From Actinomycetes bacterium (lineage in GTDB: Bacteria > Actinomycetota > JAHEXW01), in NCBI GenBank assembly GCA_023251915.1, contig JAHEXW010000012.1, positions 1 through 52,285 of the forward strand: DNA of 52,285 nt, read 5' to 3'. Every line of letters starts with the position of its first letter. The stretch's first letter is position 1. A program made the translations under genes and the position numbers. Below are positions 21,537 through 41,288 of the stretch, one piece after another. The notes beneath the pieces were generated by a model. The model did no database searches, was not told where the DNA came from, and saw nothing but the letters and a program-made list of their open reading frames with translations.

Positions 21537-21570
21537 AGAGCGTAAATGTTCGCTATAACGGTATTATACG

Positions 21571-21709
21571 GCGCCCTCTTTCATCCGGACTATACCGTCG
21601 GCTCCGGTTTACTCACCGGAATCTACTCCATGTTTCGAATCGGAGCTCGCGGGCTCTCCACTTAGCGTGGATTACCGCCGGTCGGGAATCTCACCCTGCC
21701 CTGAAGGCC
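21571..21709 (-). promoter_or_regulatory. FMN riboswitch (RFN element) upstream of ribD
   Basis: Minus strand begins GGCCTTCAGGGCAGGGTGAGATTCCCGACCGGCGGTAATCC and ends with the ATAGTCCGGATGAAAGAGGGCGC-type close, the RFN signature. Confidence 0.93.
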
Positions 21710-21730
21710 TTTTATGCTGAAATTATATCA

Positions 21731-28024: not shown

Positions 28025-28918
28025 ATGAACTATATAGGAACCTGTTCTTGGACCGACCCGACATTAACCAGGGAGTCATCATTTTACCCGGCGCGAACTA
28101 TGAGCGCGGAGGAGCGGTTGCGCTTCTACGCGACTCGCTTCAATACCGTCGAGGTCGATTCCTCTTTCTACGCTCTTCCCTCTGATGCCGTGGTCGCTCT
28201 CCAAACCCAGCGTGTGCCGGCCGACTTCGTTTTGCATTACAAAGCTTTCGGCCTCTTGACCGGCCACGGCGTTAACCCGGACGCCCTTCCGAAACCGCTG
28301 CGGGAACTCTTGCCCGCCAACGCACAGAAATACACCCGTCTGAATGACCGTGATATATCCGATGAAGCGCGCCGACTCGCTTTCCGGATGTTCGCGGGAG
28401 CGATGCGTCCGGCCCAGGCCGCCGGCAAACTCGGCTGTCTGCTGTTTCAATTCCCACCTTGGTTCAAGCCGGAGACGAAGAGTCTCGATTACCTGGAGCT
28501 GTGCCAGACCGAACTGCCCGGTTTCAATCTGGCGGTCGAGTTCCGCGAACCGTCCTGGATGACAGGCGCTCAGGAGGCGGCCACCTTGAAGTTCCTGGCC
28601 GAACGCGGTCTGACCTACGTATCAGTCGACGAGCCCCAGTTCGACCCGCCGACGACCGTGCCTCCCGTTTATCACGCCACAACTCCGGTTGCCTATATTC
28701 GCCTGCACGGCCGCAATAAGGCCGCCTGGAACAAGCGCGGCATTACGGCGGCGGAGCGGTTTGCTTATGAATACACCCAGGACGAACTGTTCGATATCGC
28801 CGGCCACGTCAAAGATTTGAGCGTCAACGCCGACCAGACTTTCGTCATGTTCAATAACTGCTTCCGCGACTATGCCGTCAATAACGCGATGATCATGATG
28901 GAAATACTAAAGTCGTAG
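28025..28918 (+). CDS. DUF72 (YecE-like) protein
   Basis: YIGTCSWTDPT, FNTVEVDSSFYALP, CLLFQFPPWF, YIRLHGRN, FNNCFRDYAVNNA. Confidence 0.92.
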   Translation: MNYIGTCSWTDPTLTRESSFYPARTMSAEERLRFYATRFNTVEVDSSFYALPSDAVVALQTQRVPADFVLHYKAFGLLTGHGVNPDALPKPLRELLPANAQKYTRLNDRDISDEARRLAFRMFAGAMRPAQAAGKLGCLLFQFPPWFKPETKSLDYLELCQTELPGFNLAVEFREPSWMTGAQEAATLKFLAERGLTYVSVDEPQFDPPTTVPPVYHATTPVAYIRLHGRNKAAWNKRGITAAERFAYEYTQDELFDIAGHVKDLSVNADQTFVMFNNCFRDYAVNNAMIMMEILKS

Positions 28919-28927
28919 GTTGCTGCT

Positions 28928-28978
28928 TGGGAGGTTGCTTCGTCGGCAGAAACCGCCTCCTCGCAATGACGTAGGGCG
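28928..28978 (-). repeat. Dispersed hairpin element, copy A1
   Basis: Plus strand TGGGAGGTTGCTTCG-TCGGCAGAAACCGCCTC-CTCGCAATGACGTAGGGCG. Confidence 0.9.
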
Positions 28979-29010: not shown

Positions 29011-29061
29011 TGGGAGGTTGCTTCGTCGGCAGAAACCGCCTCCTCGCAATGACGTAGAGCG
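29011..29061 (-). repeat. Dispersed hairpin element, copy A2
   Basis: TGGGAGGTTGCTTCGTCGGCAGAAACCGCCTCCTCGCAATGACGTAGAGCG, nearly identical to A1. Confidence 0.92.
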
Positions 29062-29086: not shown

Positions 29087-29368
29087 TTATGGTTTAAGTT
29101 CCCGCCATGTAGGATTATGTTCGTTTATCAGCGCGTCTTTTCTGCCTCGCGAACCGCCCTTAAGCTGTTTCTCGCGCGCAATGGCCTTTTCGACATATTC
29201 AAAACTCTCAAAATATACAAGCTTGGTGATGTTGTATCTAGATGTGTGCGAGAAAGCTTCTGTGTGCTTGTGCTGATATACGCGCTCTCTGAGGTTGTTG
29301 GTGACACCGATATAGAGAGCGTTGTTATATTTGTTGGCTAAAATATAGACATAATGCGTTCGCGGCAT
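29087..29368 (-). CDS. Small GIY-YIG endonuclease domain protein
   Basis: HYVYILANKYNNALYIGVTNNLRERVYQHK...AIAREKQLKG; flanked on both sides by inverted copies of the dispersed repeat. Confidence 0.9.
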   Translation of the reverse strand: MPRTHYVYILANKYNNALYIGVTNNLRERVYQHKHTEAFSHTSRYNITKLVYFESFEYVEKAIAREKQLKGGSRGRKDALINEHNPTWRELKP

Positions 29369-29408: not shown

Positions 29409-29461
29409 CGCTCTACGTCATTGCGAGACGCTCACGAAGTGAGTGCCGAAGCAACCTCCCA
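29409..29461 (+). repeat. Dispersed hairpin element, copy B1
   Basis: CGCTCTACGTCATTGCGAG-ACGCTCACGAAGTGAGTGC-CGAAGCAACCTCCCA. Confidence 0.93.
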
Positions 29462-29491
29462 GAACCAAAAACAAAGGCCAAGAAACGAGAA

Positions 29492-29549
29492 CGCTCTACG
29501 TCATTGCGAGGACTCCGAATGATTGTTCGGAGGACGAAGCAACCTCCCA
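29492..29549 (+). repeat. Dispersed hairpin element, copy B2
   Basis: CGCTCTACGTCATTGCGAG-GACTCCGAATGATTGTTCGGAGGA-CGAAGCAACCTCCCA; 7-bp CTCCGAA/TTCGGAG stem. Confidence 0.93.
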
Positions 29550-29570
29550 AGAACAGAAACCTATCGTAAA

Positions 29571-29623
29571 CGCTCTACGTCATTGCGAGGCGCCCGCGAA
29601 GTGAGCGCCGAAGCAACTCACCC
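29571..29623 (+). repeat. Dispersed hairpin element, copy B3 (diverged 3' module)
   Basis: CGCTCTACGTCATTGCGAG-GCGCCCGCGAAGTGAGCGC-CGAAGCAACTCACCC. Confidence 0.88.
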
Positions 29624-29696: not shown

Positions 29697-29948
29697 ATGA
29701 TCGAGGAAATCAAGGAAGCCATCCGGGTAAAAGCCATCTTTGCCGACGGCCGTCTGCGGCCCGAGGCCTTCGTTTGGCGGCGGCGCGTCTACGGCGTCAA
29801 GGATATCCACGGCGCCTACGACAACCGTCTGGGCCGGGCCAAACAACTGCATTACGCGGTCGGTTGCGGCGGCGACGACGTCTACGAGATCGCCCTGGAC
29901 ACGGATAAAATGGAGTGGCGTCTTGACAGGATTCATACCCCGGGATAG
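29697..29948 (+). CDS. Small conserved protein upstream of dinB (DUF6504-like)
   Basis: 83 aa, ATG soon after the SOS box, overlaps the start of dinB. Confidence 0.65.
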   Translation: MIEEIKEAIRVKAIFADGRLRPEAFVWRRRVYGVKDIHGAYDNRLGRAKQLHYAVGCGGDDVYEIALDTDKMEWRLDRIHTPG

Positions 29949-31206
29949 CGCGGCCGTAGACTCTCCCCCGCTGGCGACCGCCTCCGATATCATTCACTTG
30001 GACATGGACGCCTATTTCGCGTCGGTCGAACAACGCGACATGCCCCTTTACCGCGGCCGTCCTTTGGTCGTCTGCCATACGGACGACCCGAACTCCTTGC
30101 GCGGCGTGGTCTCGGCAGCCTCTTACGAAGCCCGGACTTACGGAGTCAAAGCCGGCGTTTCCGTGTTGGAGGCGAAGAAGGTGCTCAAAAATGCCATCTT
30201 CATCGCGGGCAACTATGACAAATATCTCCATACAACCCGTCAAATCAAGGAGATCTGCCGGCGTTATTCCGATATTGTCGAGGTTTATTCCGTAGACGAG
30301 CTGTTTATCGACGCCTCCAAGGTCAAACACCTCTTTGGCGGAACCGCTCGCGTCGCTCTGGAAATCAAGCGAGCCATTCAAAATGAACTCAACTTGACCG
30401 CTTCCGTCGGCGTCGGCCCCAATAAATTGGTGGCCAAGATGGCCTCGGAGTTCAACAAGCCCGATGGGTTCACCGTCATCGAGCCGGACGACCTGCCCGA
30501 CGTTTTCGCGCCCCTGCCGGTCGGGGATATCGTCGGCGTCGGCCGGCGGATGAAACGCCACTTCGACGCCATCGGCGTCAAGACCATCGGCGACCTCGCG
30601 GACGTCCCGGTCGATTATCTGACGGCTAAATTCGGCATAGTGGGAGCGGCGCTGCACAACGCGTCGCTAGGCATAGACGGTTCCGTCGTCGCCGGTCGCC
30701 AAGCCAGAGAGATAGTTAAATCCTTCGGCCATACGCACGCCCTGGGCAGCGGCATATCCGACAAGCGCGAACTGAAGCGGCTGCTCCTGGGACTTACGGA
30801 AGGCGTGGCGCGGCGTATGCGCCGGGAGGGCTATTACGGCCGGGCTATAACGCTGCGCCTGTCGCTGGCCCGCATGTTCTCAATCTCCCGTTCCAAAACC
30901 ACCGCTTATTTCACCCAGGAAGCCAAGGATATCTATCCCGTCGCCGTTGCCCTGTTTGACCGGGAAAGCGAGCTTGTCGAACAGTATCCGCCGACCTTGA
31001 TCGGGGTGTCCGTCAGCCGCCTGATAAGGACGGAAGATGGCATCCAGCTATCGGTTTTCGACATAATCGAGCGGAAAAACAAGGAACTTACAGTAGCCGT
31101 CGATGCCATCCGGGATAAATTCGGAGAAAGAGCCGTTTTTCGCGCCTCACTCGACACCTGGAAACGACAACACCATACCGTTCCCAGACTGGAGGTGGCT
31201 AAATAG
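29923..31206 (+). CDS. dinB: DNA polymerase IV (Y-family)
   Basis: IHLDMDAYFASVEQRDMP, YSVDELFIDAS, SVGVGPNKLVAKMASEFNKPDG. Start uncertain; TTG 29923 proposed because ATG 30004 lies within the catalytic motif. Confidence 0.93.
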   Translation: MTGFIPRDSAAVDSPPLATASDIIHLDMDAYFASVEQRDMPLYRGRPLVVCHTDDPNSLRGVVSAASYEARTYGVKAGVSVLEAKKVLKNAIFIAGNYDKYLHTTRQIKEICRRYSDIVEVYSVDELFIDASKVKHLFGGTARVALEIKRAIQNELNLTASVGVGPNKLVAKMASEFNKPDGFTVIEPDDLPDVFAPLPVGDIVGVGRRMKRHFDAIGVKTIGDLADVPVDYLTAKFGIVGAALHNASLGIDGSVVAGRQAREIVKSFGHTHALGSGISDKRELKRLLLGLTEGVARRMRREGYYGRAITLRLSLARMFSISRSKTTAYFTQEAKDIYPVAVALFDRESELVEQYPPTLIGVSVSRLIRTEDGIQLSVFDIIERKNKELTVAVDAIRDKFGERAVFRASLDTWKRQHHTVPRLEVAK

Positions 31207-40638: not shown

Positions 40639-41288
40639 CAGTCTTTAATGTCGGCGGGAGGCTCGGTGTCCTCAGGTGCGGCGTCTTCCGTCGAAGCAAC
40701 CTCCGCCGAAGCAACCTCCGACTCGGAACGCTCTACGTCATTGCGAGCCTCCTGTTCTTCAGGAGCCGAAGCAACCTCCCCCGAAGCAACCTCCGACGAA
40801 GCAACCTCCCCCGAAGCAACCTCCCCCGAAGCAACCTCCGCCGCCGCGATGTCCTCAACCGGAGCTTCCGCCACTTCATCCAAACCTAAGCGCTTACGTT
40901 CGCTGTCAGAGTGAGCGATATCCTCGCTGGCAGGAATGCCGCCCTCAACAAACATCTCTTTGACGCGGGCTTTCTTGCCGACCCGCTCGCGCAGGTAATA
41001 CAGCTTGGCGCGGCGTACCGTTCCACGCGTTTTGATCTCGATCTTGGCCAGCATAGGGCTGTGCGTCGGAAACGTACGCTCCGTGCCTACGCCGAAACTT
41101 ATTTTGCGGACAGTAAACGTTTCCTGCAACCCGCTGCCTTGCCGTTTGATCACTGTGCCTTGGAATACCTGGATGCGCTCGCGCTCCCCCTCGACAACCC
41201 TGACGTGGATCTTAACCGTATCGCCAGCCTTGAAATCAGGAATGTTCTTGCGCAGATATTCACTCTCAAATGCCTCGATCTTACCCAT
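40638..41288 (-). CDS. rplS: 50S ribosomal protein L19 with a roughly 100-aa C-terminal extension
   Basis: Core [35 protein letters not shown]...[20 protein letters not shown]; tail [19 protein letters not shown]... Confidence 0.94.
40693..40839 (-). repeat. 15-bp coding tandem repeat (GAGGTTGCTTCGNNN = EVASx) interrupted by one dispersed element
   Basis: GAAGCAACCTCC on the plus strand at 40693, 40708, 40768, 40783, 40798, 40813, 40828; 15-bp phase kept across a 60-bp gap. Confidence 0.95.
40729..40780 (+). repeat. Dispersed hairpin element, copy C, inside rplS
   Basis: CGCTCTACGTCATTGCGAG-CCTCCTGTTCTTCAGGAGC-CGAAGCAACCTCCC; CTCCTG/CAGGAG stem. Confidence 0.95.

Follow-up and report, generated by a model that had tools for sequence, protein, structure and literature searches.

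What are repeats whose flanks are nearly invariant while their centres differ in both sequence and length, and what maintains and spreads them? The question is raised by positions 29409-29623 of the window, a stretch of 52,285 nucleotides from an Actinomycetes bacterium that was analysed as a whole. The first-pass annotation had quoted five such centres from this region, and all five are present in the sequence; three of the copies do lie within the interval, whereas the copies with 17-nt centres and the one designated copy C lie outside it. Six copies are found in the window. On the reverse strand, those at 28935..28971 and 29018..29054 share the same 17-nt centre (GAGGCGGTTTCTGCCGA); they are near-identical and inverted, and together form a 54-nt direct repeat (98%). 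On the forward strand, the copy at 29416..29454 has a 19-nt centre (ACGCTCACGAAGTGAGTGC) that forms a 7-bp stem with a GAA triloop, the copy at 29499..29542 a 24-nt centre (GACTCCGAATGATTGTTCGGAGGA) that forms an 8-bp stem, and the copy at 29578..29616 a 19-nt centre (GCGCCCGCGAAGTGAGCGC), with one C-A mismatch in the stem of 29579-29616. Copy C (40736..40774, forward strand, centre CCTCCTGTTCTTCAGGAGC) stands in frame within the C-terminal extension of the gene for ribosomal protein L19 (40638-41288, reverse strand). A 15-bp tandem array (CCGAAGCAACCTCCC) around this copy, which also gives a repeat in the protein, copies the repeat's own 3′ end, and the L19 tail of a genome of the same genus (G002) likewise has cREP-like segments.

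The fixed arms ACGTCATTGCGAG and CGAAGCAA surround the variable centres in the window copies, and ACGC.CTACGTCATTGCGAG / CGAAGCAAC is invariant in six of six. With the pattern GTCATTGCGAG-N5..35-GAAGCAA, at least 42 exact-arm copies were recovered from the genome (1.42 Mb in 39 contigs), compared to none with a reversed control pattern.

Kinship with CGTC-tagged REPs

The repeats are CGTC-tagged REP (cREP) elements, to which they correspond in tag and dispersal, with atypical details of stem and tail. The survey of Di Nocera, De Gregorio and Rocco (2013; PMC3733652) describes the type as a palindromic stem of ~8-9 bp starting with AT pairs and followed by a 3-bp CCA-like unpaired tail, and includes Rickettsia RPE-4 and RPE-6 and Neisseria dRS3 in the superfamily. 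CGTC REPs occur in several phyla. Akin to these, the repeats described here have a 5′ CGTC tag outside the hairpin (all six window copies begin with it), loops that are variable as in some cREP families, dimers, and a location between genes with some copies inside them. In the window copies TTGC pairs with GCAA, yet the first A stands opposite a C, and a fixed mismatched loop and an apical stem lie further inside; the sequence 3′ of GCAA reads CCTCCCA in four copies, CCTCCCC in one and CTCACCC in one. Many of the centres are long and strongly self-complementary, unlike the loops of 4-5 nt in the survey, and away from this locus most of the genome's closely spaced pairs are tail-to-tail (on contigs C4, C21, C27, C31, C33 and C39), whereas head-to-head is the usual arrangement of CGTC REP dimers. 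The survey, in which a search for cREPs next to transposases of the tyrosine and other types turned up fortuitous cases only, regarded CGTC repeats as not associated with transposase genes and apparently without a dedicated transposase (PMC3733652).

Conservation of structure

What is conserved in these repeats is structure, not sequence: both helices keep only their pairing, and a constant sequence is seen in the tag and the internal loop. In the 18 long centres of the genome, the best stems summed to 87, compared to a mean of 71.2 and a maximum of 78 after dinucleotide shuffling. When left and right halves of centres were exchanged among copies of equal length (a re-dealing test in which the kinship of the copies is uncorrected), 96 pairs were counted in this genome against 67.7 expected (z 6.2), and 475 against 301 (z 12.3) in 131 distinct centres from many genomes; the short centre class alone gave a z of 7.9. 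The test is not circular, because the search pattern had left the centres unconstrained. Examined column by column, the 17-19 nt centres pair at their inner positions, each of which shows 3 to 5 pair types. The outer helix behaves likewise. Beside GIY-YIG nuclease genes of other phyla (see below) the element reads GTCA-N4-GAG...GA(A)-N4'-T, with 14 stem types (N4 being TTGC, TCCT, TTCT, TCCC, TTAC, TTCC, CTGC and TGCT among others), and 64 of 97 non-TTGC tags are followed by their own complementary tail, whereas re-dealt stem types gave a mean of 9.7 and a maximum of 18. The first-pass annotation had proposed selection on structure and named covariation as its check; centre and outer helix both covary, in support of the proposal. 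Re-dealing tests took the place of R-scape and of a calibrated covariance model because the centre lengths are too variable for one alignment. Replacement of whole hairpin arms, the other mechanism considered in that annotation, was not seen: judged from the paired stem changes alone, the arms differ by paired substitutions.

Several features bear on the nucleic acid in which the hairpin acts. GNA triloops, as in d(GCGAAGC), give unusually stable DNA minihairpins, and such a triloop occurs in 44 of the 69 odd-length centres that a pair closes, which favours a role in DNA over one in RNA. In many copies the first two letters of the centre are GA, with GA opposite, and tandem G.A mismatches probably separate the outer from the inner helix. 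Folding of the six window copies as DNA was equalled by at most 20 of 200 shuffles for three copies and was ordinary for the other three; folding energies, DNA parameters included, understate the short centres, which seem to use GA/GA mismatches and GNA triloops. The RNA role implied earlier (a processed small RNA or 3′-end formation) found no support, and a search of the window against Rfam at gathering score returned an FMN riboswitch and tRNA only, leaving the repeats unmatched. The riboswitch (RF00050, 103 bits) lies at 21569-21712 on the reverse strand. The features of the repeats fit a DNA hairpin that a nuclease recognises.

A GIY-YIG nuclease gene between the repeats

The key to the repeats is a gene that the first-pass annotation had overlooked between them. 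Five clustered copies flank a gene on the reverse strand (29087..29368) for a GIY-YIG nuclease of 93 aa (PF01541, E 2e-15), a candidate for the partner enzyme of the repeats and a point of difference from the CGTC REPs of the survey, for which no associated transposase was reported. Residues Y8, Y19, R29, H33 and E66, which correspond to GIY-YIG active-site residues of described role (PMC8287910), are present and conserved in 39 relatives. An AlphaFold2 model of the protein shows a confident fold (pLDDT 90.9), to which the nearest PDB structures are the UPF0213 protein BH0048 and then Slx1, the Foldseek E value exceeding 0.01 beyond the first match. By its catalytic residues and fold, which UPF0213-type and Slx1 nucleases have in common with it, the 93-aa protein is a member of the GIY-YIG superfamily with predicted nuclease activity, while its likeness to Slx1, as judged from the model, is a hint only. 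Slx1 is a structure-specific nuclease that cuts branched DNA and depends on Slx4 and a zinc finger; to our knowledge, UPF0213 proteins have no assigned function.

For an unbiased test of the association, a peptide pattern derived from the 93-aa protein, without use of the repeats, served to collect 80 loci from GTDB genomes. In 46 of the 80 loci we counted a total of 136 TTGC-type cREPs no more than 300 bp from the gene (2.9/kb), compared to 0.04-0.11/kb at distances of 0.3-10 kb, and a reversed-pattern control gave no match near the gene. For the general element (GTCA-N4-GA...N4'T) the corresponding values were 275 copies at up to 400 bp from the gene (4.14/kb), with 75 of 86 loci represented, and 0.127/kb beyond 1 kb, with 1-2 copies for changed control tags. 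Eleven of the 86 loci escaped the strict pattern. Most of these have plain cREPs or related palindromes with GTCAT, the window locus included, which was missed because its last pair is A-C. Elements stood on both sides of 40 of 63 GIY-YIG genes, but of only 20 of 971 other genes (Fisher P about 1e-40). More than twenty phyla or candidate phyla are represented among the GIY-YIG loci, and a genome of the window's order (G001) has a family member with repeats on both sides (L038). Another relative in G001, 55% identical (C2:13379-13645, L036), has no recognisable tagged repeats nearby. Unlike the subfamily of the 93-aa protein, the loci examined from other GIY-YIG subfamilies, whose members are weaker relatives, have almost no such repeats and little or no repeat framing. 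The association of the repeats with one GIY-YIG subfamily is thus strongly shown. Mapped on the protein tree, stem type changed 12 times, compared to a mean of 20.7 and a minimum of 15 with shuffled labels; this clustering fits co-inheritance and is confounded with taxonomy. In Bacteroidota and Spirochaetota, other palindromes starting with GTCAT flank the same nuclease gene (e.g. GTCATTCCGCACTTGATGCGGAATC, GTCATGCCCGACTTGATCGGGCATC and TGTCATCCTGAACTTGTTTCAGGATCTA; loci L112, L114, L127, L129, L072 and L090) and probably represent additional families of repeats within this system. No report of an association between cREPs and GIY-YIG genes appeared in the literature searched, a coverage that excludes most subscription journals and all preprints.

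The arrangement around the gene is mostly inverted. The nearest elements took the form '+ gene -' in 33 cases and '- gene +' in 11 (44 inverted), as opposed to direct orientation in 9; the window has the '- gene +' form, the other loci mostly '+ gene -'. At 31 of 83 loci, but in only 3 of 104 control windows, one flank repeats 20 nt or more of the other in direct orientation. At one locus (L060) the cassette of repeats and gene is present as a tandem duplicate. At another (L080) it is shortened: 28 nt from the start of the gene are joined to 49 nt from its end, beside the same repeats and with the next repeat at a spacing of 24 bp, equal to that beside the full gene. A run of N at L080 1500-1556 adjoins the deleted cassette, the left end of which is not readable. 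The duplicated and internally deleted cassettes look like derivatives of a mobile element, and by analogy the shortened form would stand to the full one as a MITE to its parent. No remnant of the GIY-YIG gene was found among 30 repeat loci of the window's own genome.

In the window, the cassette lies between a DUF72 gene (28025..28918, forward strand) and a DUF6504-like gene (29697..29948, forward strand; E 4.7e-4, below Pfam's cut-off), after which comes the gene of a Y-family DNA polymerase (open frame 29740-31206). In G001 the genes for DUF72, DUF6504 and the polymerase are contiguous, with a gap of 94 bp between the first two and no cassette, so that the locus is unoccupied in a relative. 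In G002 the neighbourhood of the polymerase is collinear, the genes for DUF72 and the nuclease are missing, and the DUF6504 gene is preceded by just one repeat, the orthologue of 29579-29616. The cassette is therefore variable at this site, with a history that includes gene loss or gain; neither exact insertion ends nor a target duplication could be mapped from the comparison with relatives, which differ in the DUF72 gene as well.

Across the phylum, repeats and gene are less tightly coupled. Of 150 genomes, 17 have repeats, 10 have any GIY-YIG match and 5 have both, a moderate co-occurrence (one-sided P 0.002, kinship uncorrected) in which 3 of the 5 have matches to other subfamilies only. 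By profile search, 12 of the 17 genomes with TTGC-type cREPs lack a GIY-YIG relative, and two of these 12, G016 and G126, are rich in repeats. Persistence of the repeats therefore does not require the gene, and perhaps their origin does not either. G016, with no detectable nuclease relative, has regular same-strand cREP arrays (C7 92735-93224 and C12 66140-66702, with spacings of about 61/86 and 180 bp).

A candidate mechanism and its rivals

In light of these results, a joint reading, in which cREPs flank a small single-domain GIY-YIG nuclease gene and most likely move together with it, is the one we hold to be reasonably probable. Chance similarity or an artefact of the pattern could be suspected from the short centres and the imperfect stems of some window copies; it is already excluded by the controls, as reversed or changed tags gave 0-2 matches near the gene against 136-275 and the loci had been chosen on the protein only. 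It is also very improbable that the repeats act in cis as regulatory hairpins of RNA, be it to terminate transcription or to stabilise mRNA, and are unrelated to movement. They are covarying hairpins between genes, and REPs elsewhere have been proposed to affect mRNA stability (PMC3733652), but such a function would explain neither the inverted framing of one nuclease subfamily nor the duplication and deletion of cassettes, and one copy lies inside the L19 gene; with no match in Rfam, an RNA regulatory element was dropped as a candidate.

Two further explanations leave the repeats to another agent. The GIY-YIG gene might be a passenger on cREPs moved by a different enzyme, for instance a Y1/RAYT-like HUH transposase: the genome has one Y1_Tnp gene, and a link with enzymes of this type is described for GTAG REPs (PMC3733652). 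This too is improbable, as the framing of one GIY-YIG subfamily in many phyla is hard to explain for a passenger and cREP-transposase neighbours were, as cited above, fortuitous; since the 3.3-kb locus of the only Y1_Tnp gene (L034) has no exact-arm cREP, RAYT-driven REPs were dropped as the main explanation. A more serious contender, to which we give roughly one chance in five, is that the gene parasitises cREPs that were there before it, in the manner of a homing gene: its product would cut repeat hairpins or dimers, and the gene would be copied into them through recombination, but it would not spread the repeats. The many genomes of the phylum with cREPs and no gene would then be expected, as would the lone G002 repeat at a locus occupied in the window, and the direct repetition of repeat dimers on both sides of the gene resembles the outcome of recombination at a dimer. 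The gene remnants at the L080 repeat pair speak against it, indicating that some repeat pairs derive from cassettes, as does the fact that stem type follows the protein tree.

With movement of repeats and gene together as the preferred reading, the nuclease becomes the strongest candidate for an enzyme by which cREPs spread, and that it both cuts and spreads them is, in our estimate, somewhat favoured. Its substrate would be the repeat, made up of the GTC(A) tag, an outer helix that is ~4-5 bp long and unconstrained in sequence, the invariant internal loop GA / GA(A) and, at the tip, a hairpin that is likewise free in sequence and in many copies ends in a GNA triloop. The repeat would be extruded as a DNA hairpin, either while single-stranded in replication or as a cruciform, and the nuclease would recognise tag, internal loop and helix and cut there. 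Through repair or re-joining, a copy would arise elsewhere, be it of one repeat, of a dimer or of the complete cassette of gene and flanking repeats; because GIY-YIG enzymes hydrolyse DNA and do not join it, the joining would have to be done by host repair. The full cassette would be the autonomous form, and dimers and internally deleted cassettes the dependent ones.

Such a system would have a close parallel in the REP-associated tyrosine transposases (RAYTs), which are IS200/IS605-like and act on GTAG-tagged repeats (REPINs). As in RAYT/REPIN, a single gene for a small nuclease is bordered by short palindromic repeats that bear a tag of four nucleotides, and dependent dimers are scattered over the genome. 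The tag, however, is CGTC and not GTAG, and the enzyme is a metal-dependent GIY-YIG nuclease with a fold unrelated to HUH/Y1, which places the pair outside RAYT/REPIN. Our best reading is that nuclease and cREPs work in a comparable manner with an unrelated, Slx1-like enzyme, the enzymatic step being inferred. The GIY-YIG homing endonucleases, such as I-TevI, offer a parallel in their catalytic domain and in the idea of a selfish gene; the 93-aa protein differs from the I-TevI type in having no DNA-binding tail, no intron and, as proposed, dispersed hairpins as sites.

We consider it slightly better than an even bet that this is a minimal mobile DNA that spans phyla, in which a GIY-YIG nuclease, with no transposase, recognises a hairpin and spreads both itself and CGTC REPs. 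A specific candidate, the 93-aa nuclease, with a defined DNA substrate makes the question of the missing transposase testable at the bench. If the proposal is true, the second great REP superfamily would have in this nuclease the enzyme that it has so far lacked, and two unrelated nuclease folds, HUH and GIY-YIG, would have reached the same repeat-spreading way of life.
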